Assembly: GCF_029223255.1 (NCBI RefSeq) | Contig: NZ_JARHUC010000003.1 | Span: forward strand, 744,001-808,000 | Length of the DNA stretch: 64,000 nt | DNA from: Albimonas marina | GTDB lineage: Bacteria; Pseudomonadota; Alphaproteobacteria; Rhodobacterales; Rhodobacteraceae | Direction: 5' to 3' | In this document: piece by piece, positions 43,841 to 59,714 of the stretch | Layout of the letters: every line of letters starts with the position of its first letter | How positions within the stretch are numbered: position 1 is the first letter of the stretch | Program-made: the position numbers and the translations under genes | Notes under the pieces: generated by a model | What the model was told of the DNA's origin: nothing | The model's input: only the letters and a program-made list of their open reading frames with translations | The model's database searches: none

Positions 43841-44284
43841 TCAGTAGCGGAAATCCCACTGGGTCAGGTGCACGCCGGCCGCGCCGCGCAGCACCACCTC
43901 GCCGCCGTCGAAGCTCAGCACCAGGTCGCGCCCGCGGATCGAGGGCAGCAGGTCCCATGGCGTCAGGCCCAGCCCCTCGAGGCTGATGACGTCGCGCCCC
44001 TGCTCGAAGTCCAGGATGAAGCCGCGCCCGCCCGAGAGGCGGAACTCGAACCGGTCGCCCTCCAGGAAGCGCTTCAGCCCCTCGGGATCGTCGCCCTCCC
44101 CGCCCGGCGCCTCGCCGCCCTCCAGCCGCGGGGCGTCGCCGAGGTTCAGGCGCAGCGTGTCCTCGTCGTCCAGGCGCAGGGGGTCGCCGCCCTTCGGGCG
44201 CTCGGCATCGTCGCCCTCCGGGCGCGGGGCGTCGTCCCCCTCCGGCTCGGGCGCGTCGTCGGTCTCTCCTCCCGGTCCGGTCAT
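43841..44284 (-). CDS. Small acidic protein with RTX-type C-terminal module
   Basis: The 147-residue protein begins with ~60 residues of imperfect acidic repeats (EPEGDDAPRPEGDDAERPKG and LRLDDEDTLRLNLGDAPRLE). The C-terminal ~80 residues follow the pattern of the module that closes RTX proteins: FRLSGGRGFILDFEQGRDVISLEGLGL, then GRDLVLSFDGGEVVLRG, ending LTQWDFRY. There are no true nonapeptide repeats and no signal peptide, so it may be exported by type I secretion or be a remnant of a larger RTX protein. Its ATG overlaps the stop of the CPBP gene (ATGA), so the two are translationally coupled, which is unusual for a secreted product. Confidence 0.7.
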   Translation of the reverse strand: MTGPGGETDDAPEPEGDDAPRPEGDDAERPKGGDPLRLDDEDTLRLNLGDAPRLEGGEAPGGEGDDPEGLKRFLEGDRFEFRLSGGRGFILDFEQGRDVISLEGLGLTPWDLLPSIRGRDLVLSFDGGEVVLRGAAGVHLTQWDFRY

Positions 44285-48318: not shown

Positions 48319-48512
48319 AGCGCCTGTTCTCCGGAGCCGTCTCTCGCGGATGCCGGAAAGAGCGAGTCGGGCGGAGCGGTCAGGGATCGCGAAGCGACCC
48401 CGCGCTTGCGCGGGGCTTGTCCTTGACCGCTCCGCCCGACTCGCTCAGGCATCCATCAGCGAGAGACGGATCCGGAGAGCAGGCGCGGCCCTGTTCTTTG
48501 GTGAGTCAGGAG
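48319..48512 (+). repeat. Long palindromic element, copy A
   Basis: A ~190-bp stretch folds on itself almost completely. The outer arms GCGCCTGTTCTCCGGA and TCCGGAGAGCAGGCGC bound a second arm of AGAGCGAGTCGG / CCGACTCGCT. The stem GGTCAGGGA / TCCTTGACC carries two inner hairpins, TCGC-GAA-GCGA and CCCCGCGC-TT-GCGCGGGG. A tail CTGTTCTTTGGTGAGTCAGG follows. It lies between the convergent TetR and lysK genes. Three more copies lie at 54071, 58494 and 59336. Confidence 0.85.
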
Positions 48513-48605
48513 CCCGCCGGAGGCAGCCACGCCCGCCCCTCCAGGCACGCCCGACCCCAAAGGCCCAAGCCCGCCCGCAGGGCGCCTGCAGACCGCCCCT
48601 TCTCC

Positions 48606-48641
48606 AAAACGACGAAAGCCGCGCAGGTCGCGCGGCTTTCG
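48606..48641 (-). terminator. Rho-independent terminator of lysK
   Basis: CGAAAGCCGCGC (48613-48624) and GCGCGGCTTTCG (48630-48641) form a 12-bp perfect stem with the loop AGGTC. On the minus strand TCGTTTTGG follows. It lies 33 bases after the lysK stop. Confidence 0.85.
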
Positions 48642-48673
48642 GACGTTCGCTCGCCGGTCGGGGGACGCCGCCG

Positions 48674-50260
48674 TCAGGCCGCCTCCACCAGCTCCCCTTT
48701 CAGCGCCCGCTCGATCAGCGCCGCCGTCTCGGCCACGCCGTAGAGCGCCACGAACCCGCCGAAGCGCGGCCCCTGGGAGGCGCCCAGCAGCACCTCGTAG
48801 AGCGCCTTGAACCAGTCGCGCAGGTTCTCGAACCCGTGGTCCTTGCCCACCGCGTAGACCTCGTCCTGCAGCGCCTCGGGCGAGGCCTCGCCCTGCCAGC
48901 CCCGCAGGCGGGCGGCGAGGTCGGCCAGCGCCGCCTGCTCCTGCGCGGTGGCCTCGCGGAAGACGCGGGTGGGCTTCACCTTGTCCTGGTAGTAGGCGAC
49001 CGCCCGGCCCACCGCGGCGTCGAAGCCGGGGTTTGTCTCGGCCGAGGCGCCCGGCGCGTAGCGCGCGAGGAACCCCCACAGCGTCGCCTTGTCCTCGGCG
49101 CCCGTCACCGAGGCGAGGTTGAGCAGCATCGCGAAGGGCACGACCATCTCGTCCGCCGGCGGGGTTCCGCCGTGGATGTGCCAGGCCGGGTTCATCAGCT
49201 GCGCCTTCAACTCCTGCTCGGGGAAGGCGCGCAGGTGCTGCGAGTACTCGTCGACCGTGCGCGGGATCACGTCCCAGTGCAGGCGCTTGGCGGTCTTGGG
49301 CTTCTGGAACATGAACAGCGACAGCGATTCCGGCGAGGCGTAGGCCAGCCACTCCTCGATCGAGAGGCCGTTGCCCTTCGACTTGGAGATCTTCTGGCCG
49401 TCGCCGTCCAGGAACAGCTCGTAGTTGAACATCTCCGGGCTGGGCATTCCCACCGCCCGGCAGATCTTCTTTCCGAGGTCCGCGGACGGGATCAGGTCCT
49501 TGCCGTGCATCTCGTAGTCGACGCCGAGCGCCATCCAGCGCATCGCCCAATCCGGCTTCCACTGCAGCTTGCAGTTCCCGCCCGTCACCGGGATCTCGAC
49601 GCGCTCGCCGTCCGGCTCCTCGTAGACGATGGTGCCCTTGGTCAGGTTGCGCTCCAGCGTCGGGACCTGGAGGACGTGGCCGGTCTTCGGCGACACGGGC
49701 AGGAAGGGCGAGTAGGTCGCCTGCCGCTCGGACCCGAGGCTCGGCAGCATCACCTCCATCACCGCGTCGAACTTTTCGAGGATGCGCAGCAGCATCGCGT
49801 CGAAGCGGCCCGACTTGTAGTAATCGGTGGCCGAGGCGAACTCGTACTCGAAGCCGAAGGCGTCGAGGAACGACCGCAGGCGGGCGTTGTTGTGCTCGCC
49901 GAAGCTGGGGTGCGTGCCGAAGGGATCCCGCACGCGGGTCAGCGGCAGGTTCAGATCCTCGAGCAGCATCTCGCGGTTGGGCACGTTGGTCGGCGCCTTG
50001 CGCAGGCCGTCCATGTCGTCCGAGAAGCACAGCAGCTTGGTGGGGATGTCCGAGATCGCCTCGAACGCCCGCCGCACCATGGTGGTGCGGGCGACCTCGC
50101 CGAACGTGCCGATATGGGGCAGGCCCGAGGGGCCGTAGCCCGTCTCGAACAGCACGTAGCCTTTCTCGGGCGGCGCCTTCTCGAACCGTTTGACCAGCCG
50201 GCGCGCCTCTTCGAAGGGCCAGGCCCTGGAGTCGAGGGCGGCGTCGCGCAGCTCGGTCAT
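48674..50260 (-). CDS. lysK: Lysine--tRNA ligase, class I
   Basis: It charges tRNA-Lys using a class I Rossmann-fold enzyme, as in many alphaproteobacteria and archaea, instead of the class II LysS. The 528-residue chain has the HIGH motif as [13 protein letters not shown] (His at residue 49) and KMSKS as KISKSKGN (residues 290-297). Conserved [12 protein letters not shown] and KWKPDW-type regions are also seen. The C-terminal helical anticodon domain follows. The start at 50260 ([19 protein letters not shown]) was chosen because AAGGAG lies just upstream; longer frames are spurious. A perfect terminator follows the stop. Confidence 0.96.
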
Positions 50261-50541
50261 GTCGTCGGTCTCCTTGAGGAGAGGCTCGGGGGTGCGAGGC
50301 TCGTCTGTCCGCGCAGGCCCCGGGGCCTGAGTCGGAGGTTGCGTTGAGTCGCCCCCTCTAGGGCGGGCGCCCCCGCCCGTCAATGCCGCCGGGTTCCGCG
50401 CCGGGGCGGCCCAAGCCCGTCTCCGCAGGCGTCCCGACGGCCGCGGCGGCGGGTTCCCTTGCGGCCGGCGGGGGCGCGCAGGCTTGACCCCGGCAGCCGG
50501 GGCGGCTTGATGGGAGGGCAGCATTCACCACGGGTTCATTG

Positions 50542-51432
50542 ATGACGTTCCGATTTCCGCCGGTCCTCGCGGGCCTGCTCGTCCTCGCGCCGCTTGCCGG
50601 TCCCGCCCAGCCGGCCGCCTCCGAGACCTCCCCGCCGCAGACCGCGCCGCCCGTGCATCTCGACGCGCAGGACTGCGAGACCATCCGCGCCTACGACCGC
50701 CGCATTTTCTCGCCCTCGTTCCTCAACCAGTGGGCCCACATGGCGCTGACGCACGAGGCCTGCGGCGGCTCCACCTACGACTGCAAGCGCGAGCGGATGC
50801 GCCGCTGGCCGGGCGGCTTCACCCTGGTGCTGCCGCCCCAGAAAAGCTGGGAGCGCCTGGGCGAGGAGGCCGCGCGCGTCGCCGCCGGCGCCCGCGACGC
50901 CGCGCAGTTCTACGCGCGCACCCTGGGCCTCGACCCCGCCGAGACGATCCACGAGAGCGACCGGATGACCAGCGACCGGCCGCAGATCGTCGTCTACGCC
51001 GGCACCATCGACGAGCTGGTCAGCATCGCCTCCGGCCTGCCCGACTCCCTGCGCTCGGACTTCCGCACGGACTACCTGCGCCGGGGGCGGCACTCCCGCC
51101 GGCCGACCTGCGTGGTGACGACCCACAACCTCAAGGCCAGTCCGGCGGAGTCCTACCTGTCGCTGATCTTCATCAGCCTCGAGAACCGCTGGAGCCTGCT
51201 GGGCGCCTGCGGGCGGGAGGAGGTCTTCAACGCCTTCGTGCCCAACGACCCGGTGGGCGACGGCTCGCTGTTCGAGGACGCCTGGGGCCACGACGACCTC
51301 GGCCCCGTCTTCGGCCCGCGGGAGCGGGCGCTGCTGCGCCTCCTGCACCACGCCGACGTGACGCCCGGCCTCTCCTACGACGACGCGAAGGCCGCCGCTG
51401 AGAAGGCGATCCGCCAGGATTGCGGCGGCTGA
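50542..51432 (+). CDS. Secreted DUF2927-like protein
   Basis: The 296-residue protein has a Sec signal peptide (TFRFPPVLAGLLVLAPLAGPAQPAAS) and is probably periplasmic. Its C-half follows the DUF2927 pattern: AESYLSLIFISLENRWSLLGACGREEVFNAFVPNDPV, a GDGSLFEDAWGHDDLGPVFGPRE loop, and LLRLLHHADVTPGLSYDDAK. The AFVPND segment stands for the ALGLPND-type motif of that family, reminiscent of zincin-like peptidases but without an HExxH. Five cysteines in the mature part suggest disulfides (e.g. ACGGSTYDC). Function is unknown. The initiation codon could be the TTG at 50539. It is divergent from lysK and stands alone. Confidence 0.72.
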   Translation: MTFRFPPVLAGLLVLAPLAGPAQPAASETSPPQTAPPVHLDAQDCETIRAYDRRIFSPSFLNQWAHMALTHEACGGSTYDCKRERMRRWPGGFTLVLPPQKSWERLGEEAARVAAGARDAAQFYARTLGLDPAETIHESDRMTSDRPQIVVYAGTIDELVSIASGLPDSLRSDFRTDYLRRGRHSRRPTCVVTTHNLKASPAESYLSLIFISLENRWSLLGACGREEVFNAFVPNDPVGDGSLFEDAWGHDDLGPVFGPRERALLRLLHHADVTPGLSYDDAKAAAEKAIRQDCGG

Positions 51433-51824
51433 GGCGCGGCCAGGGGCCCGGGGCTCCCGCCCCGGCGAAACCGCGCGTCTCCGGCGTCCCGTCCCGCCCG
51501 CCGCCGACCGGGGCGCCGCGCCCCGCGCCCGCCCGTGGCGGACCGCCCGCCCGCGGCGCGCGCCCCGCGTCCCGCCCGTGGCCGGGCCGCCGGCCGGGCG
51601 CCCCGCCCCCGGCCGCCCCCTCGCCGCCCGCGCCGACGCCCGCCGCGCGCCGCGGGCCCGACCGTCCCGCCCGCGCCCGGCCCGACGCGGCGCCTCCGCC
51701 CTGCCGGTTCGCCCTGCTGTTCCGCCCTCCCTTTTCGTCCGTCCGCCCCCGCCCTATGCTCCGCCCCGACCGCCGCAGGGCGCCCCCGCACGAGGCGCCC
51801 CGGCGCTGGGAGGAGCACCGCCGC
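51433..51824. other. 392-base spacer, extremely GC-rich, no gene seen
   Basis: Between the DUF2927-like gene and acetoacetyl-CoA synthetase, the sequence from about 51480 to 51710 is a nearly unbroken run of C and G with little A or T. Frames through it are open by composition only. The promoter of the synthetase is expected within the last ~110 bases, where base composition relaxes near 51715-51770. Confidence 0.4.
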
Positions 51825-53801
51825 ATGACCACCGAATTCCCCGAAGAGCCGATCATCTGGACCCCGCCGGCGGAGCTCGCCGAGAGCTCCGAGATGGCGC
51901 GCTACATGCGCTGGCTGGCGGCGGAGCGGGGCCTCTCCTTCCCCGACTACGACGCGCTGTGGGACTGGTCGACGACGGATCTCGAGGGCTTCTGGACCTC
52001 CCTCATCGAGTTCTGGGACCTGCCCTTCGCCACCCGCGAGACCCGGGTCATCGACCGCGAGGTCATGCCCGGCGCCAAGTGGTTCGAGGGCGCGACCCTC
52101 AACTGGGCCGACCAGGTCTGGCGCCATGTCGAGGCGAACGGCCGCGACGCCCCCGCCTTGCGCTTCCGCTCCGAGACCGGAGAGGGGACGTTGAGCTGGG
52201 GCGAGCTCGCCGACCGCGCCGCCTCGCTGGCCGAGACGCTGCGCGGCTGGGGCGTGGCCCCCGGCGACCGGGTCTGCGCGATCCTCCAGAACGGGCCCGA
52301 GTCGGTGATCGCCTGCCTCGCCACCGCCTCCATCGGGGCGATCTGGTCGCTGTGCTCGCCCGACATGGGCCAGACCGCGATCCTGGGCCGCTTCGCCCAG
52401 ATCACCCCCAAGGTCCTGATCGCCGCCGACGGCTACGCCCACGGCGGCAAGACGGTCGAGCGGCTCGACCTCGCCCGGGCGGTGGCCGAGGGCCTGCCGG
52501 GCCTCGAGCGCCGGATCCTCGCCCCGATGATCGGCGCCCCGCGCCCCGAGGGCTGGGAGGACTGGCAGGCGGTCACCGCCGGCCACGCCGGCCCGCCGCG
52601 GACCGAGATCCTGCCCTTCGACCATCCGCTGTGGATCGTCTATTCCTCCGGCACCACCGGCACGCCCAAGCCGATCGTGCACGGCCACGGCGGGATCCTT
52701 CTGGAAGGCTCCAAGTTCCCGCTCCACAACGATATCCGCGACGGCGACACGTTCATGTGGCTCACCGCCTCGGGCTGGATCATGTGGAACTGCCAGGTGA
52801 TCGCCCTGACCCGCGGCTGCACGGTGGCGATCTTCGACGGCGCCCCGAACCTGCCCGACATGGCCGAGCTCTGGCGCTTCGCCGCCCGCGCCGGCTGCAG
52901 CTTCGTGGGCGCGGGGGCGGCCTTCTTCTCGACCTCGATGAAGGCGGGCGTGGTCCCGAAGGAGGAGGCCGACCTCTCCGCCCTGCGCGCCATCGGCTCC
53001 ACCGGCTCGCCGCTGGCGCCCGAGGCCTACGACTGGATCCAGCAGAACGTCGCCGACGTCTGGATCACCCCCATCGCCGGCGGCACCGACTTCGCCGGCG
53101 CCTTCGTGGGCGGCTGCATCCTGCTGCCCGTGCGCCGCGGCGAGATGCAGTGCCGCTTCCTCGGCGCGCGGGTCGAGGCCTGGGACGAGGCCGGCAAGCC
53201 GGTCGAGAACCAGGTGGGCGAGCTGGTCTGCACCCGCCCCATGCCCTCGATGCCCCTCTACTTCTGGGGCGACGCCGACGGCAGCCGCTACGCCGAGAGC
53301 TATTTCGAGACCTGGCCCAACGTGTGGAAGCACGGCGACTGGATCCGCATCACCCCCACCGGGGGCGCGGTGATCTACGGCCGCTCCGACGCCACCATCA
53401 ACCGCCGCGGCCTGCGCCTGGGCACGTCCGAGATCTACCGCGCCGTCGAGGACCTCGACGAGGTGCTCGACAGCCTGGTGGTCGATCTCGAGTACCTGGG
53501 CCGCGACAGCTTCATGCCCCTCTTCGTGGTGCTGCGCGAGGGCGTCGCCTTCGACGCGGCGATCCAGGAGAAGATCCGGAGCGCGATCCGCGCCTCCGTC
53601 GGCCCGCGCTACCTGCCCGACGAAATCGTGCAGATCGCGCAGGTCCCGCGCACCCTGTCGGGCAAGAAGCTGGAGGTGCCGGTGAAGAAGCTCCTGCTCG
53701 GCGTCGACGGCGCCAAGGCGGTGAACCGCGACTCGATGGCCAACCCCGAGGCCTTCGACGCCTTCGAGGCCTACGCCGCCGCCCGCGCCGCCACCGCCTG
53801 A
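51825..53801 (+). CDS. Acetoacetyl-CoA synthetase
   Basis: It activates acetoacetate to acetoacetyl-CoA with ATP, allowing ketone bodies or polyhydroxybutyrate breakdown products to be re-used. The 658-residue chain shows the ANL superfamily layout: the ACS N-terminal domain, the P-loop-like YSSGTTGTPKPIVHGHGG, WLTASGWIMWNCQV, GGTDFAGAFVGGC, YGRSDATINRRGLRLGTSEIYRAVE, and the C-terminal lysine in LSGKKLEVPVKKLL. The ACS-like N-terminus (DWSTTDLEGFWTSLIEFW) and length separate it from acetyl-CoA synthetase. The start at 51825 (MTTEFPEEPIIWTP) has a GGAGGAG site nearby. A terminator follows directly. Confidence 0.93.
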   Translation: MTTEFPEEPIIWTPPAELAESSEMARYMRWLAAERGLSFPDYDALWDWSTTDLEGFWTSLIEFWDLPFATRETRVIDREVMPGAKWFEGATLNWADQVWRHVEANGRDAPALRFRSETGEGTLSWGELADRAASLAETLRGWGVAPGDRVCAILQNGPESVIACLATASIGAIWSLCSPDMGQTAILGRFAQITPKVLIAADGYAHGGKTVERLDLARAVAEGLPGLERRILAPMIGAPRPEGWEDWQAVTAGHAGPPRTEILPFDHPLWIVYSSGTTGTPKPIVHGHGGILLEGSKFPLHNDIRDGDTFMWLTASGWIMWNCQVIALTRGCTVAIFDGAPNLPDMAELWRFAARAGCSFVGAGAAFFSTSMKAGVVPKEEADLSALRAIGSTGSPLAPEAYDWIQQNVADVWITPIAGGTDFAGAFVGGCILLPVRRGEMQCRFLGARVEAWDEAGKPVENQVGELVCTRPMPSMPLYFWGDADGSRYAESYFETWPNVWKHGDWIRITPTGGAVIYGRSDATINRRGLRLGTSEIYRAVEDLDEVLDSLVVDLEYLGRDSFMPLFVVLREGVAFDAAIQEKIRSAIRASVGPRYLPDEIVQIAQVPRTLSGKKLEVPVKKLLLGVDGAKAVNRDSMANPEAFDAFEAYAAARAATA

Positions 53802-53807
53802 CCCCTC

Positions 53808-53838
53808 GCGCGCGGCCTCGCCGTCGAGGGCCGCGCGC
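53808..53838 (+). terminator. Terminator hairpin after acetoacetyl-CoA synthetase
   Basis: GCGCGCGGCC and GGCCGCGCGC form a perfect 10-bp stem around an 11-base loop, seven bases after the stop, followed by GCCTCCCTTTCTCC. Confidence 0.75.
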
Positions 53839-54070
53839 GCCTCCCTTTCTCCTGACCGCCTCCAAGCCCGGACGGACCGCGCGCCTGCGTCCGCCGCTCC
53901 AACGCGCGCGCTGCGTGCCCCGCTCCCAAAACCTCGCAATCCGCCTCGCGCGGCCCTGCCCCCCCGTCCGATTTCCCCCGCCCAGGCAGGCCGCAGCGTC
54001 ATCCCCCTGACGCTCCTAGCCCCGCCCTCTCCCTCCCAGGCGCCCGGCGCTCCGCCCGAGGCTCGCGCGA

Positions 54071-54256
54071 AGCGCCTGTTCCCCGGAGCCGTCCGTCGCT
54101 GATGCCGTAAAGAGCGAGTCGGCGGGAGGGGTCAGGGATCGCGCAGCGACCCCCGAAGGGGGCTTGTCCTTGAGCCCTCCCGGCGACTCGCTCAGGCATC
54201 TTCAGCGACGGACGGCTGCGGGGAACAGGCGCGGCCTTGTTCCCTGGTGAGCTCCT
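54071..54256 (+). repeat. Long palindromic element, copy B
   Basis: Same architecture as copy A: outer arms GCGCCTGTTCCCCGGAGCC / GAACAGGCGC, middle arms GATGCC / GGCATC, then AGCGAGTC / GACTCGCT, stem GGTCAGGGA, side hairpin TCGC-GCA-GCGA. The central hairpin is shortened to CCCCC-GAA-GGGGG. The tail is TTGTTCCCTGGTGAGCTCCTG. It lies between the acetoacetyl-CoA synthetase terminator and the DUF3616 gene; the rest of that 588-base gap shows no gene. Confidence 0.82.
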
Positions 54257-54389
54257 GAAGCGGCCTTCCGGGCGCGCCAGCGCCCCCGCGCAGCGGCCAG
54301 CCGACGAGCCCCGCCTCGGAGGCCTCCCCCCCTCGCCATCCGAGCCCCGCGCCCCATCTAGACCTCATCTCCAACCCAGAGAGAGGCCC

Positions 54390-55493
54390 ATGCCCCGCGA
54401 CGCCAAGCCCCTGCCCCTCGACCGCGCCCGGACCGGCACGGTGGACATGCTGTTCACCCATCACGACCGCATCGCCCATATCGACGATCCGATCTGGGCG
54501 GACGTCTCCAGCCTCGCCGCCGCCGGGCGCACGCTGTTCGTGACCTGCGACGAGACCGCCTCGGTCGAGGGGCTCGACTGGGATCCGGAGACGGGGATGG
54601 CCGGCGGCCACCGCTCCTACCCGCTGGGCCTGGTGTTCGAACTGCCCGAGGGCGCGAAGGGCGAGATGGACATCGAGGGGCTCGCCGTCTCCGACGGCTG
54701 GCTTTGGGTCTGCGGCTCGCACGGGCTCAAGCGCGGCAAACCCGGGGGCAAGAAGTTCAAGGACCTCGCCGACATCGACTGGGACCCCAACCGCGGCTTC
54801 CTCGGTCGCCTGCCGCTGGTCGAGCGCGAGGACGGGCGGGTGGAGCCCGTCGGCGCCGTCGATCCGATCGACGCGGGCCCCGCGCGCCGCGCCGCGATGC
54901 TGCCGATGGTCGGCACCCGCGACACCTACCTGCGCCGGATGCTCGCGCGCGATCCCCTGATCGGCCCCTTCATCGACCTGCCCTGCAAGGAGAACGGCTT
55001 CGACGTCGAGGGGCTGGCGGTGCGCGGGAACGAGGTGATCCTGGGCCTGCGCGGCCCGGTCCTGCGCGGTTGGGCGCTGATCGTGCGCATGGAGATGGCG
55101 GAGACCGCGGCCGGCGAGCTCGAGCCCGTCAAGCGCGAGGACGGCCGGCGCTACTCGGTCCACGCGCTCGCGCTGGGCGGCCAGGGGATCCGCGATCTCG
55201 CGTGGGACGGCGACCGTCTGCTGATCCTCTCGGGCGCCATCGCCGACCACGAGGCGCTGCAGTCGGTCTTCGCGCTGGAGGCCGGCGACCTCGACCGCGA
55301 GGTGATCGGCGCCGACCGCCTGCCCCGCCTGCTCGACCTCCAGATCCTGCGCGGCGGCGACAACGCCGAGGGGCTGGAGGTGGTGGGCGAGGGCGCGGAC
55401 CGCCGCCTGATGCTGGTCTACGATTCGCCCCACAACGCGCGCACCGACGCCGACGAGGGCCGCCTGACCGGCGACCTCTTCGCCCTGTCCTGA
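54390..55493 (+). CDS. DUF3616 domain protein
   Basis: The 367-residue protein is β-rich and fits DUF3616, probably a β-propeller-like fold: DVSSLAAAGRTLFVTCDETASVEGL, GEMDIEGLAVSDGWLWVCGSHGLKRG, KENGFDVEGLAVRGNEVILGLRGP, and GIRDLAWDGDRLLILSG. The paired DxEGLAV blades and the final NAEGLEVVGEGADRRLMLVYDSP are characteristic. It has no signal peptide, so it is cytoplasmic. Function is not known. The start at 54390 (MPRDAKPLPLDRARTG) was chosen because GAGAGG precedes it; the longer frame begins inside the repeat element. It stands alone, with tRNA-Thr downstream in the opposite orientation. Confidence 0.82.
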   Translation: MPRDAKPLPLDRARTGTVDMLFTHHDRIAHIDDPIWADVSSLAAAGRTLFVTCDETASVEGLDWDPETGMAGGHRSYPLGLVFELPEGAKGEMDIEGLAVSDGWLWVCGSHGLKRGKPGGKKFKDLADIDWDPNRGFLGRLPLVEREDGRVEPVGAVDPIDAGPARRAAMLPMVGTRDTYLRRMLARDPLIGPFIDLPCKENGFDVEGLAVRGNEVILGLRGPVLRGWALIVRMEMAETAAGELEPVKREDGRRYSVHALALGGQGIRDLAWDGDRLLILSGAIADHEALQSVFALEAGDLDREVIGADRLPRLLDLQILRGGDNAEGLEVVGEGADRRLMLVYDSPHNARTDADEGRLTGDLFALS

Positions 55494-55799
55494 GACGGCC
55501 CGGCCGGCGCGCCCGGGCGACGCCCGCGCCGGAGCGGCGCCCCGGGCGCCTGCGGTTCGGCACGCCGTCGCGGCCTCGCGCGGTTCGCGCCCCGCCGAAG
55601 CGGTCGGCGAATCCCCGCGGAGGCCGCGAGACGCGCCCGTGCGGAAATCCGACTCGCGCCGCGACTCGTTAAGCCTTTCGAAGCTCTTGAAGGGATCAAT
55701 GCGCCCGACGCCCCGCGACGCGCCCGCGCAGGGGCGAGGCGCGCGCGTTCCCCGCGCCGAAGCGCGGGACCTGACGGTCGAACGAAGATGGGAGGAGCA
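55494..55799. other. 306-base spacer, no gene seen
   Basis: The spacer lies between the DUF3616 gene and the convergent tRNA-Thr. It is C/G-rich, with a less GC-rich stretch near 55665-55700. No hairpin with a T-run or promoter pattern was identified. The minus-strand tRNA transcript should terminate here. Confidence 0.35.
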
Positions 55800-55874
55800 T
55801 GGTGCCGCAGGGGAGGATTGAACTCCCGACCTCACCCTTACCAAGGGTGCGCTCTACCACTGAGCTACTGCGGC
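55800..55874 (-). tRNA. tRNA-Thr (anticodon GGT)
   Basis: On the minus strand a 75-nt cloverleaf includes the encoded CCA. The acceptor GCCGCAG pairs with CTGCGGC, D arm GCTC/GAGC, anticodon stem CACCC/GGGTG around TTGGTAA (anticodon GGT, threonine), T arm GGGAG/CTCCC with the loop TTCAATC, and the discriminator is A. All stems are perfectly paired. Confidence 0.98.
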
Positions 55875-56088
55875 GGTGCGGGGCGGGTAATGCCGCGTTC
55901 GTGGGCCGAGCGCAAGACCCCTCCTGCACGGTTTTTCGCCTGCCGCTGCGGCGGGTCCCGCCCGCGCCCGCCGGGGCCGCCCGGCTGCACCCCGCGCCGC
56001 GCCCGGGTTTCCCGAGCGTCCCGCGAGACCCGGCGCGGCTTCGCGCGCGGCGCTGGACGTGCTCGCGGCCGGAGGCTAGGGGGATTTG

Positions 56089-56397
56089 ATGACCGACGAC
56101 GCCCCCATCCCGCCCGGCCCGCGCGACGGATCCGGGCCCGAGACTCCCTCGGCCCCCGGGTCCGGGACCGCGCCCCTGCCCGAATCCCGCCCCGAATCCC
56201 TGGCCGACTCCCGACGCGGCGCCCCGGCCGACTCGCGCGCCGCCCGCCGGGCCGCCTCGCAGGGCGATTCCCTCGAGGCGCGCGAGGCGCGGCTGGCCGA
56301 GGCGCTGCGCGCCAACCTGCGTCGCCGCAAGGACCGAGCCCGCGCCGCCCGCGCCGCGCCTCCGACCGACGCGTCCGGAGGGGAGGACGAGGCATGA
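56089..56397 (+). CDS. Small conserved-type protein with basic C-terminal helix
   Basis: The 102-residue protein begins with ~60 disordered Pro, Ser, Gly-rich residues (TDDAPIPPGPRDGSGPETPS). It continues with a charged helix SLEAREARLAEALRANLRRRKDRARAARAA, the only structured part and the part that looks conserved among Rhodobacterales neighbours of murA (from memory, moderate certainty). An AGGGGG ribosome site precedes the ATG at 56089; a TTG three bases earlier is in frame. It overlaps the MmcQ/YjbR gene by four bases (ATGA), so the two are coupled. The basic helix could bind nucleic acid or membranes, but no function is known. Confidence 0.7.
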   Translation: MTDDAPIPPGPRDGSGPETPSAPGSGTAPLPESRPESLADSRRGAPADSRAARRAASQGDSLEAREARLAEALRANLRRRKDRARAARAAPPTDASGGEDEA

Positions 56398-56828
56398 GCG
56401 CCCCCGACGATTCCCGCGGGCGGTCCGAGGCCGACGCCCCCCGCATCCCCGCCGCGCCCACTCGCGCCAAGGCCGCGCCGGGCTCGCCGCTGGAGCGGCT
56501 GCGCGCGCTGGCCCTCGCCCTGCCCCGCACCTCCGAGAAGCTGAGCTGGGGCGAGCCGACCTTCCGCGTCGACGACCGCATCTTCGCGATGGTCAAGGGC
56601 GGGGACGGCGAGGCCTCGGTCTGGCTCAAGGCCCCCGACGGCGCGCAGGAGATGCTGATCGCCGCCGCGCCCGAGCGCTTCTTCCGCCCGCCCTACGTGG
56701 GCCAGAAGGGCTGGATCGGGATCCGCCTCGCGCGCGATCCCGACTGGGAGGAGGTGGCCTTCAACCTCGCCCGCTCCCACGAGCTGATCGCCGCCCGCGG
56801 CGCCCGGCGGCGGGACGACGCCGGCTGA
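56394..56828 (+). CDS. MmcQ/YjbR family DNA-binding-like protein
   Basis: The 144-residue protein begins with ~45 disordered residues, then the MmcQ/YjbR fold: LERLRALALALPRTSEKLSWGEPTFRVDDRIFAMV, ASVWLKAPDGAQEMLI, FFRPPYVGQKGWIGIRL and the final EEVAFNLARSHELIAAR. The family has a "double wing" fold suggested to bind DNA; its true function is uncertain. The start is set by the ATGA overlap with the upstream small gene. Frames that extend far upstream through the tRNA gene are artefacts. murA follows 356 bases later with its own ribosome site, so it probably has its own promoter. Confidence 0.85.
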   Translation: MSAPDDSRGRSEADAPRIPAAPTRAKAAPGSPLERLRALALALPRTSEKLSWGEPTFRVDDRIFAMVKGGDGEASVWLKAPDGAQEMLIAAAPERFFRPPYVGQKGWIGIRLARDPDWEEVAFNLARSHELIAARGARRRDDAG

Positions 56829-57184
56829 TCCCGCCCGCCTGATCTCTCCTGCTTCGAGGCACGTCCCACCGCCGCGCGCTGGCGCACCGGCCCCTCCCTG
56901 CGCTCTCCGGCCGCCCGCTTGCCGCAGCCGAACCCGCCCGCAAGGCGCCTCCTCCTGCACCGTCGCGTCCGTCGCGCGCGGAGGCGCCGCGCCGGGCGGC
57001 GCGCCCGGCCTCGCCCTTGCGCCGCGCGGCGCGGTCGGACGGGCGCCCGGCCCCGACCGCCGCCCGCGGCGGGCCGCCCGCCTCATCCTCGCCCCCTTCG
57101 CCCCCGGATCGCCCGGTCCGCGTCATTGAACCGCCCCGCGGCGCACGATATCGCGGTGCGGAAGCCGACGAACAGGAGGGGCGG
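56829..57184. other. 356-base spacer upstream of murA
   Basis: No gene was seen. The 30 bases before murA include CGCACGATATCGCGGTGCG (arms CGCAC/GTGCG near 57142-57160) and a strong AGGAGGGG ribosome site at 57173-57180. The GATATC centre may be part of a murA promoter; -35/-10 boxes are not clear. Confidence 0.35.
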
Positions 57185-58450
<1,266 letters not shown>

Positions 58451-58493
58451 GCGAGGCCGTCTTGCGGGGGCTCGGGGGCGGGCGTCGAGGCCG

Positions 58494-58689
58494 CTCCTGA
58501 CTCACCGAAGAACAAAGCGCCCGCGCCTGTCCTCCGGTTCCGTCTCTCGCTGAAGATGCCTGAGCGACTCGGGCGAAGGGGTCAAGGACAAGCCCCGCCC
58601 AGGGGCGGGGTCGCTTCGCGATCCTGGACCCCTCCGCCCGAGTCGCTCTGATCGGCATCAGCGAGAGACGGCTCCGGAGAACAGGCGCT
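58494..58689 (-). repeat. Long palindromic element, copy C (inverted)
   Basis: This is the reverse orientation of copies A, B and D. On the minus strand it reads GCGCCTGTTCTCCGGAGCC, AGAGCGACTCGG, side hairpin TCGC-GAA-GCGA, central hairpin CCCCGCCC-CT-GGGCGGGG, closing arms CCGAGTCGCTCAGG and GAGAGACGG, and the tail TTGTTCTTCGGTGAGTCAGGAG. The central stem differs from A and D on both sides (GCCC/GGGC instead of GCGC/GCGC), keeping pairing. It fills most of the 349-base gap between murA and DUF2948. Confidence 0.84.
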
Positions 58690-58799
58690 CCCGGGGGGCG
58701 CCGCGGGGCCGGCGTCGCCGGGCGCGCCCTTGTCAGCGGCTGGTCCCTTCCCCTATCTGGCTCGGGAGCGGACGCCCACCGTCGAATGCAGGAGCCGCC

Positions 58800-59285
58800 A
58801 TGAGCGATGCGCGTTTCGAGGACGCGGCCGAGAGGCCGATCCGCCTGAGGGCCGAAAGCCCCGAGGACCTGGAGGTCGTCTCCGCCCTCCTGCAGGACGC
58901 CGCCGGCGTGGCGGGGGACCTCGCCTGGATGCGCCGCAAGCGCCGCTTCGCCCTGTTCCTCAACCGCTTCCGCTGGGAGGACCGCGCCCGCGCCGAGCGC
59001 GCCGGGCGCCCCTACGAGCGGGTGCGCTGCGTGGCGCTGGTCGAGAACGTCGAGAGCGTGCGCGCCGCCGGCATCGACCCGAGCGAGCGCGACCAGGCCC
59101 TCTCGGTCCTGCGCCTCGAGTTCGAGGGCTCCCCCGACCCCGAGGATCCCTCGGGCCTCCTGCGCATTATCCTGGCCGGCGACGGCGAGATCGCGATCCA
59201 GGTCGAGGCGCTGGAGATGCGGGTCGAGGACGTCACCCGCCCCTACCAGGCCCCCAGCGGCAAGGCCCCCAGCCACCCCGACTGA
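58800..59285 (+). CDS. DUF2948 family protein
   Basis: The 161-residue protein fits DUF2948: IRLRAESPEDLEVVSALLQDAAGVAGDLAWMRRKRRFALFLNRFRWED, then ERVRCVALVENVESVRAAGID, and LRIILAGDGEIAIQVEALEMRVEDVTRPYQAPSGKAPSH. The last segment, with a conserved VTRPY-APSGK end, marks the family. It is cytoplasmic and of unknown function. Its constant place between murA and hisD in Rhodobacterales is the main clue. The gap to murA holds palindromic copy C, and the gap to hisD holds copy D, so this gene is flanked on both sides by the element. Confidence 0.88.
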   Translation: MSDARFEDAAERPIRLRAESPEDLEVVSALLQDAAGVAGDLAWMRRKRRFALFLNRFRWEDRARAERAGRPYERVRCVALVENVESVRAAGIDPSERDQALSVLRLEFEGSPDPEDPSGLLRIILAGDGEIAIQVEALEMRVEDVTRPYQAPSGKAPSHPD

Positions 59286-59335
59286 GCGCCCGGCCCGCGC
59301 CCGGCGCCCCGGCGCGACGCCCGCCCCCCTCGCAA

Positions 59336-59530
59336 AGCGCCTGTTCCCCGGAGCCGTCTCTCGCTGATGCCGATCAGAGCGACTCGGCGGGAGGGGTCAG
59401 GGATCGCGAAGCGACCCCGCGCCTGCGCGGGGCTTGTCCTTGACCCCTCCCGGCGAGTCGCTCAGGCATCGTCAGCGAGAGACGGATCCGGGGAACAGGC
59501 GCGGTGGCCCTGTTCCTGGGTGAGTCTGGA
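59336..59530 (+). repeat. Long palindromic element, copy D
   Basis: Same design as copy A, with outer arms GCGCCTGTTCCCCGGA / TCCGGGGAACAGGCGC, CCGTCTCTCGCTGA / TCAGCGAGAGACGG, GATGCC / GGCATC, and AGAGCGACTCGG with its partner, side hairpin TCGC-GAA-GCGA, and central hairpin CCCCGCGC-CT-GCGCGGGG. The tail is CCCTGTTCCTGGGTGAGTC. It lies in the 429-base gap between DUF2948 and hisD; a further short hairpin-like block GGCCCAAGCCCGCCCGCAGG is at 59591, also found after copy A at 48562. Confidence 0.86.
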
Positions 59531-59714
59531 GCGTCCTCCCCGCCCGCCCCCCGCGCCTCCCGATCCCGTCCGCCACGACGCTCGCCCCCGGGCCCAAGCC
59601 CGCCCGCAGGGCGCCCCCTCTCCGCCCCCTCTCCGCCCCCTCTCCGCGTTCGCCCCCGGTTGTGACCGCCGCCGCCGCCCGCTATCACCGCGGAACGCTT
59701 ATTTCGGAGGGCCC

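Follow-up and report, generated by a model that had tools for sequence, protein, structure and literature searches.

A dispersed structured repeat with a T-shaped tip between genes of Albimonas marina, with relatives in other phyla

The window analyzed here, a stretch of 64,000 nucleotides from Albimonas marina (Rhodobacteraceae; assembly GCF_029223255.1, contig NZ_JARHUC010000003.1, positions 744,001 to 808,000), carries four copies of an intergenic element of about 190 bases that combines a long rod with a T-shaped tip and occupies more than 100 sites in the genome. We read the element as a non-autonomous, dispersed family of structured repeats that multiplied via its folded plus strand, and we give this reading about an even chance. 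An original prediction, made from the letters of the window alone, had proposed the four copies, and they are real: their letters were inspected, and all were found again with a covariance model (R2). Beyond them, R2 gave two nonsignificant matches in the window (E values of 0.083 and 0.65), and each copy was also matched weakly on the opposite strand. The mean column identity of the four-copy alignment was 86%.

The anatomy was derived from 112 full copies and one partial copy lacking the tail in the A. marina genome (G000), together with 45 copies from a sister species of the same genus (G001). The rod consists of long helices interrupted by an internal loop, with a three-way junction at the tip. 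From the 5′ end, the 5′ arm GCGCCTGTTCYYCGG is followed by the second helix GGAGCCGTCnnTCGC, the sequence GATGCCG, the internal loop and a further helix with about 8 hypervariable pairs. The three-way junction then comprises the stem TCARGGA/TCCTTGA, a side hairpin (TCGC-GNA-GCGA in the majority of copies), a variable top hairpin and an unpaired CTTG. The 3′ side mirrors the 5′ parts and ends in a tail, YTGTTCYYnGGTGAG. Two side hairpins had been predicted; the tip instead has one side hairpin and one top hairpin. The predicted unit of about 190 bp holds for the core but not for the full extent, since the conserved unit is longer and includes outer boxes. A 5′ box lies just upstream of the core in many copies, and the core is followed by a 3′ box (AAGCCCGCCCGCAGGGCGCC or a variant of it) in 63 of 112 copies, at a distance of 42 to 73 nt in 62 of them and of 129 nt in one. 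The 3′ box AAGCCCGCCCGCAGGGCGCC forms a small hairpin with a GCA triloop, and its 20-mer occurs exactly 97 times genome-wide. Some of these 20-mers have no exact core match nearby, as judged against 100 of the 125 core matches in the genome, and the 3′ box is perhaps a second, separable repeat. The copies and their parts in the window are as follows.

48319..48511, plus strand: copy A, with rod, T tip and tail; the syntenic gap of G001 has no copy
48562..48588, plus strand: 3′ box of copy A (GGCCCAAGCCCGCCCGCAGGGCGCCTG)
54036..54070, plus strand: 5′ box of copy B (CCCAGGCGCCC...CTCGCGCGA)
54071..54257, plus strand: copy B, with rod, T tip and tail; between the same gene pair and in the same orientation in G001
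58495..58689, minus strand: copy C, inverted, with rod, T tip and tail; common to G001
59300..59335, plus strand: 5′ box of copy D, which pairs with the 3′ box of that copy in the minimum-energy fold
59336..59530, plus strand: copy D, with rod, T tip and tail; flanked by a DUF2948 gene and the hisD region; common to G001
59337..59352, plus strand: 5′ arm of copy D
59404..59414, plus strand: side hairpin of copy D, with a GAA (GNA) triloop
59415..59432, plus strand: variable top hairpin of copy D
59433..59436, plus strand: CTTG linker in the three-way junction of copy D
59487..59502, plus strand: 3′ arm of copy D, which can pair with the 5′ arm or the tail
59509..59526, plus strand: tail of copy D, a repeat of the 5′ arm and then GGTGAGTC
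59591..59618, plus strand: 3′ box of copy D

The covariation that had been noted in the central hairpin and the basal stem was correct, and it was larger in a sample of 41 diverse copies from three genomes. In this sample, 27 of 62 pairs showed changes on both sides, and paired cells amounted to 98.7%, compared to 87.2% in shuffled alignments. On all five measures, none of 500 shuffles came up to the observed value, and shifting the partner by one to three columns lowered pairing to 40 to 44%. The copies are thus not unrelated sequences, and their excess of compensatory changes supports the proposed selection on the folded form. Copy D with short flanks folded at −155.9 kcal/mol, compared to −98.8 ± 5.0 kcal/mol for 200 shuffles (z = −11.35), none of which equaled it. 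Among 121 copies, 83 had none of the 63 pairs broken, 30 had one, 6 had two, one had three and one had eight; the mean pairwise identity of the A. marina copies was 0.845.

The plus strand gave the more stable RNA fold in all 112 A. marina copies and all 45 G001 copies, as well as in 16 of 17 copies from 13 other genomes (the exception was L151). The copies are related, so these counts are not independent trials, and the cross-genus set constitutes the stronger test. At loci from the cross-phylum search described below, the plus strand folded better in 39 of 43 cases with the arms alone and in 42 of 43 with the full element; this set includes loci on viral contigs and leaves out one further locus at an edge, and its independent lineages number fewer than 43, since near-identity is common among the clostridial copies and roughly one locus in four is alphaproteobacterial. 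Alignment fold energies were −128.2 for the plus strand and −103.9 for the reverse strand. G-U exceeded A-C combinations in the pairs (309 versus 8, and 27 versus 8 with five columns dropped; P = 0.002); however, the structure predicted from the reversed alignment likewise favored G-U (129) over A-C (20). As this count is not strand neutral, polarity was rested on the fold energies. Because the plus strand folds better across the sets, it is one folded strand, either RNA or single-stranded DNA, that is conserved, and the firm functional statement is the need of one strand to fold. The strand preference also largely disfavors an origin of the paired changes by mutation alone, in which template switching within the palindrome copies one arm onto the other without selection. 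Such a process would agree with the 24 ortholog pairs of A. marina and G001, where both sides differ in 152 paired cells and one side in 38, and 41 cells are broken (some of the latter due to misalignment of the top hairpin). Nevertheless, it predicts no strand preference, and it leaves both the conserved tip and a tail that follows the arm unexplained; we give it hardly any credence.

A folded strand could also be single-stranded DNA. One alternative is a single-stranded DNA signal of mobile DNA, either a lagging-strand origin or a single-stranded DNA promoter, that escaped into the chromosome and multiplied. GNA triloops are unusually stable in DNA, and 154 of the 157 copies have such a triloop as their side loop. 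The single polarity also fits, as do the transfer, recombination or replication genes next to some of the relatives found in Clostridia and on plasmid-like contigs. However, the top loops, which were parsed in 156 of 157 copies (GNA in 51, CTTG in 48, GNRA in 25, other CNNG in 10 and others in 22), do not discriminate RNA from DNA, the GNRA and CTTG kinds suiting RNA too, and the neighbors of most Rhodobacterales copies examined are ordinary chromosomal genes. The Frpo/ssi single-stranded DNA promoters carry −35, −10 and UP sequences in their stem and reside in plasmid leading regions (PMC11541004). The element resembles them as a folded single strand of one polarity with a link to mobile DNA; it differs in that promoter boxes in the stem and a leading-region location were not shown for it, with no systematic promoter scan made. 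Overall, we consider a single-stranded DNA signal unlikely.

The tail duplicates the 5′ arm and varies together with it. At the second variable base, arm and tail read T/T in 133 copies and C/C in 24, without exception among 157 copies, and their mutual information was 0.617, compared to a shuffled maximum of 0.041. At the first variable base, the combinations were C/C (151 copies), T/T (5 copies) and C/T (1 copy). The fourth tail base is a G in 62 of the 157 copies, which counts against perfect pairing. In copy D, the 3′ arm and the tail alone folded at −24.1 kcal/mol. Since the tail repeats the 5′ arm and covaries with it, two strands can compete for one partner, the 3′ arm, and this competition may act as a switch. 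Inspection by eye suggests a like resemblance between the tail and the local 5′ arm in other genera. Outside the Rhodobacterales, tail repeats are only suggested by the sequences: they reached 9 to 11 nt at loci L174, L187, L195 and L212 (shuffled maxima of 9 to 10), and the mean over 28 loci was 7.0, compared to 6.1 after shuffling.

In the A. marina genome (5.85 Mb in 22 contigs), the exact inner pattern of the element matched 125 times (51 forward and 74 reverse), whereas its reversed control did not match. A slightly looser pattern gave 139 exact matches in G001, and there were none in G002, a third member of the genus, or in G022 of the same family. R2 matched 149 of 150 scored candidates in G000 and 150 of 150 in G001, and it gave 2 matches in G002, 31 in G022, 20 in G233, 6 in G337, 15 in G400, 24 in G268, 2 in G271 and 5 in G276; as the model also matches the opposite strand of the palindrome, these figures are matches and not copy numbers. 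The G002 sites syntenic to the window gave no significant model match.

The strictly intergenic location that had been predicted was borne out: none of 111 A. marina copies had an overlap above 15 nt with a called gene, with the 112th copy left out because it lay at a segment edge. Genes were called with a simple codon-based caller, which yielded 540 genes in the DNA sampled around the copies. The 111 copies fell into 40 convergent, 37 tandem sense, 26 tandem antisense and 8 divergent gaps, and the comparison set, obtained by subtraction, comprised the gaps in that DNA that hold no element and span at least 150 nt (15 convergent, 67 tandem and 55 divergent). Convergent gaps were enriched (odds ratio of 4.6; P = 2.8e-6) and divergent gaps were depleted (odds ratio of 0.12; P = 7.6e-10). 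The sampled DNA was centered on copies, and absolute placement rates are thus not genome rates. In other genera, 9 of 17 copies began 3 to 41 nt past an upstream reading frame in sense orientation, while the rest lay farther away or were ambiguous; here, frames were taken from stop to stop and the functions of neighbors were judged by eye. The neighbors of these copies were unrelated to one another.

An alternative that these placements favor is a functional RNA at mRNA 3′ ends. Here, the rod would end, trim or protect the message (by termination, RNase III cutting or 3′ protection), chiefly between convergent genes, and competition between the tail and the 5′ arm would set the timing. Besides the convergent enrichment, the divergent depletion and the short distances in other genera, the better folding of the plus strand favors it, and so does the retention of the element at 24 sites shared with G001 despite near-total divergence of the flanks. 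On the other hand, orientation in tandem gaps showed no significant bias (37 sense versus 26 antisense; P = 0.21), the conserved sequence holds no U-run, and copy number drops to none or few in a genome of the same genus. We regard a 3′-end RNA as the main rival of our reading, though as a rather doubtful one.

Comparison of G000 and G001 indicated that the sites are old. Both flanks were syntenic to A. marina DNA for 26 of the 45 G001 copies (the other 19 were not judged), and 24 of these 26 had an A. marina copy at the same site in the same orientation, while 2 did not. Viewed from the 112 A. marina copies, 24 sites were filled in both species, 2 were filled in A. marina only (one of them copy A of the window) and 86 were not judged. 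At the shared sites, the flanks have nearly lost their similarity while the element remains: identity over the 60-nt flanks was 0.558 and 0.618 (0.506 and 0.444 for random pairs), and identity of the element was 0.844, compared to 0.837 with a random A. marina copy. In the multiple alignment, identity was 0.823 for orthologs, 0.810 for all between-species pairs, and 0.841 and 0.837 within the species. The ortholog ranked anywhere from 1st to 110th among the 112 A. marina copies, a species-wide difference above 0.35 was found in 18 of 190 columns, and the types of the middle stem and the top hairpin reassorted, giving 76 combinations in 112 A. marina copies and 41 in 45 G001 copies. An ortholog signal persisted in the tail (0 of 2,000 permutations as high), in unpaired columns (P = 0.0035) and marginally in the top hairpin (P = 0.049); the paired columns as a set did not show it (P = 0.064), and neither did the internal loop or the hypervariable stem (P = 0.98 for each). 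Shared sites whose orthologs are hardly more alike than other between-species pairs thus point to old sites whose inner sequence is homogenized or fast evolving.

No insertion junction or target duplication was readable at three aligned pairs of filled and empty sites, because their flanks are too diverged. The lack of a readable duplication bears on an ordinary miniature inverted-repeat transposable element (MITE), i.e., double-stranded DNA moved by a DDE transposase that acts on the arms. The element is dispersed and intergenic, has long inverted arms and shows no coding capacity, all of which would suit a MITE. However, the entire rod rather than its ends alone is kept paired, the strand preference is consistent, and the tail lies outside the palindrome yet covaries with it, and we consider a MITE of this kind very improbable. 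Synteny between G000 and G001 breaks between flanks of window positions ∼50386 to 51743, and the G001 side of the break carries a copy of the element (C28:394184); such repeats may seed rearrangements.

Relatives of the element were found well beyond the genus. A first model (R1), applied with at most 6 candidates scored per genome, matched 22 of 394 genomes of the family, 14 with the full model, one with most of it and 7 with the tip only. R2 matched 4 of 385 genomes of the class, namely, the A. marina genome, G521 (full length, from another family; E = 7e-10), G484 (weak; E = 5e-4) and G701 (tip only). Several Rhodobacterales copies (L158, L138, L141, L142 and L151) keep the outer arms and the tail, but their tip is of another type (AAATCGCGGAGG...CCGCTATTTTG), as if tips could be swapped like modules. 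A scan of a species collection with the exact tip pattern, which has 28 fixed bases and a gap, returned 39 stretches. Of these, 23 came from Clostridia (Pseudoflavonifractor, Flintibacter, Oscillibacter, Neglectibacter, Lachnospiraceae and others) and 9 from Rhodobacterales (Allosediminivita, Loktanella, Chachezhania [three], Phaeobacter, Shimia, Roseovarius and Jannaschia). The remainder came from an unclassified bacterium and from metagenome-assembled genomes (MAGs): two of other Alphaproteobacteria and one each of Defluviitaleaceae, Thermoanaerobaculales, Fibrobacter and Verrucomicrobiia, the last of which resembles a Roseobacter copy. Taxa are given as labeled in the records; the taxonomy itself was confirmed for two of them, Chachezhania (a member of the Rhodobacterales) and Pseudoflavonifractor (one of the Clostridia). 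Contamination is possible in single MAGs, but it does not account for the clostridial isolates.

Full-length R2 matches were obtained at L203, L176, L177, L172 and L174, and other loci were matched in part or at the tip only. The sequence GTCGC stood 37 to 44 nt ahead of the tip in 18 of 28 nonidentical loci and was absent in 10. The full-length matches and the position of GTCGC support a homologous rod in some of the Clostridia but not in all. Some relatives lie beside genes of integrative elements or plasmids (two DUF961 genes at L205, a resolvase gene and a sigma factor gene on either side of L172, and a RepA-type gene at L198). The tip motif also occurred in five contigs classed as viral (L211 to L215), at least some of them with clostridial-type arms; the arm pattern had no match in viral contigs, and phages gave no BLAST match to the element. 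Among plasmids, a single 62-nt match to the arm and tail (82%) was found, on an Acuticoccus plasmid.

No known family tested here explains the element. At the gathering score, Rfam covariance models found only tRNA in the window and in 15 relatives from other phyla and the Rhodobacterales; in E-value mode, they gave subthreshold matches only, mostly to microRNA models. No description of the element was found in the literature, including full-text searches for tip and core sequences, whose hits were unrelated as judged by title and abstract, with most subscription journals outside the scope. REP/REPIN/BIME sequences are likewise high-copy, intergenic, palindromic and noncoding, and the 125 exact matches and the intergenic position of the 111 judged copies agree with that general class; however, the unit of the element is much longer. 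REP/REPIN with a RAYT was rejected, as the Y1 transposase (PF01797) was found above the cutoff in none of 8 element-bearing genomes, while 5 of 14 control genomes were positive. The element shares its size class, imperfect palindrome, intergenic location and MITE-like character with ERIC, other intergenic units of 100 to 170 bp and Correia elements; we know of no description of strand preference, a T tip or arm-tail covariation for units of the ERIC/Correia type, and these traits would set it apart.

The Br-REP1 and Br-REP2 sequences of Bradyrhizobium are dispersed intergenic palindromes in overlapping 3′ untranslated regions of convergent genes; they are short stem-loops with consensus lengths of about 20 and 40 nt, and their copy number varies strongly among relatives (PMC5082802). 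The element shares with them the dispersal of an intergenic palindrome in an alphaproteobacterium, the convergent 3′ ends and the variable copy number, and it differs in sequence and in having a long rod, a T tip and an arm-tail repeat.

Another comparison is with the 23S rRNA intervening sequences (IVSs) with S23/IVP, which are selfish structured RNA inserts. The outer arm of the element at L180, on the Thermoanaerobaculales MAG, is where a 23S_rRNA_IVP (four-helix) gene begins, and the first bases of that gene are present in both arms. The IVS/S23 protein family (PF05635) was nevertheless rejected: none of the 8 element-bearing genomes had a match above the cutoff (G400 had one weak match below it), and the 14 controls had none either. 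Elsewhere in the window, a 24-nt spaced direct repeat (family D1) runs in six registers at positions 44069 to 44261 and is perhaps a repetitive protein segment.

The original prediction had offered a MITE-like mobile element, a structured RNA or a processing or termination element, and the data do not fully separate the three. The copy-number contrast (125 and 139 versus none in the third genus member), the unrelated neighbors and the homogenization support a repetitive element; the strand preference, the divergent depletion and the convergent enrichment support a structured RNA or 3′-end element. The spread across phyla and the patchy copy number likewise argue for a repeat without a protein of its own, and the old shared sites, the gap preference and the intact folds speak for a function at gene ends or for conversion. 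Under our reading of a repeat multiplied via its folded plus strand, a putative trans-acting factor would recognize this strand in its folded state, whether RNA or single-stranded DNA, with the T tip as the probable target, and would copy the element. Copies settled at gene 3′ ends would be tolerated, and gene conversion would keep the copies alike and intact. More speculatively, the tail may open the base of the rod during copying by competing for the 3′ arm.

Several points weigh against such a repeat. A mobilizer was not found, with no search made for an autonomous relative. Movement itself was not seen: 4 of the 26 plus 2 testable sites differ, and no junction was readable. The age of the sites, the intact folds (no broken pair in 83 of 121 copies) and the convergent preference fit a function equally well. 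By exact pattern the clostridial copies are few: the tip pattern occurred one to three times per genome in 14 genomes (12 of them non-Rhodobacterales-named or other), with no match in controls. This pattern is much too strict to yield real copy numbers, however, as it gave 2 in Chachezhania, and Chachezhania sediminis has 20 model matches with both strands counted. Moreover, L188, L191 and others adjoin ordinary or unclassified genes, so that the link to mobile DNA is partial. We further propose, tentatively and as a possibility we hold to be less than even, that the element belongs to a cross-phylum class of mobile elements that have no protein of their own and are defined by the shape of one folded strand. 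In this class, a shared T tip would sit on lineage-specific rods, be passed among Clostridia, Rhodobacterales and other phyla, exceed 100 copies in some hosts and carry a three-strand switch made of the 5′ arm, the 3′ arm and the tail.

The element constitutes a large structured-repeat family that is absent from Rfam at threshold. Its unusually clean covariation makes the fold, the polarity and the evolution, through shared sites and homogenized sequence, directly accessible to study. If the tip is what a copying factor reads, it would offer a way to track down that factor and would establish a further type of mobile element, one recognized by the shape of a single strand. If the element acts at mRNA 3′ ends, more than 100 gene ends per genome would share one uncharacterized RNA device.

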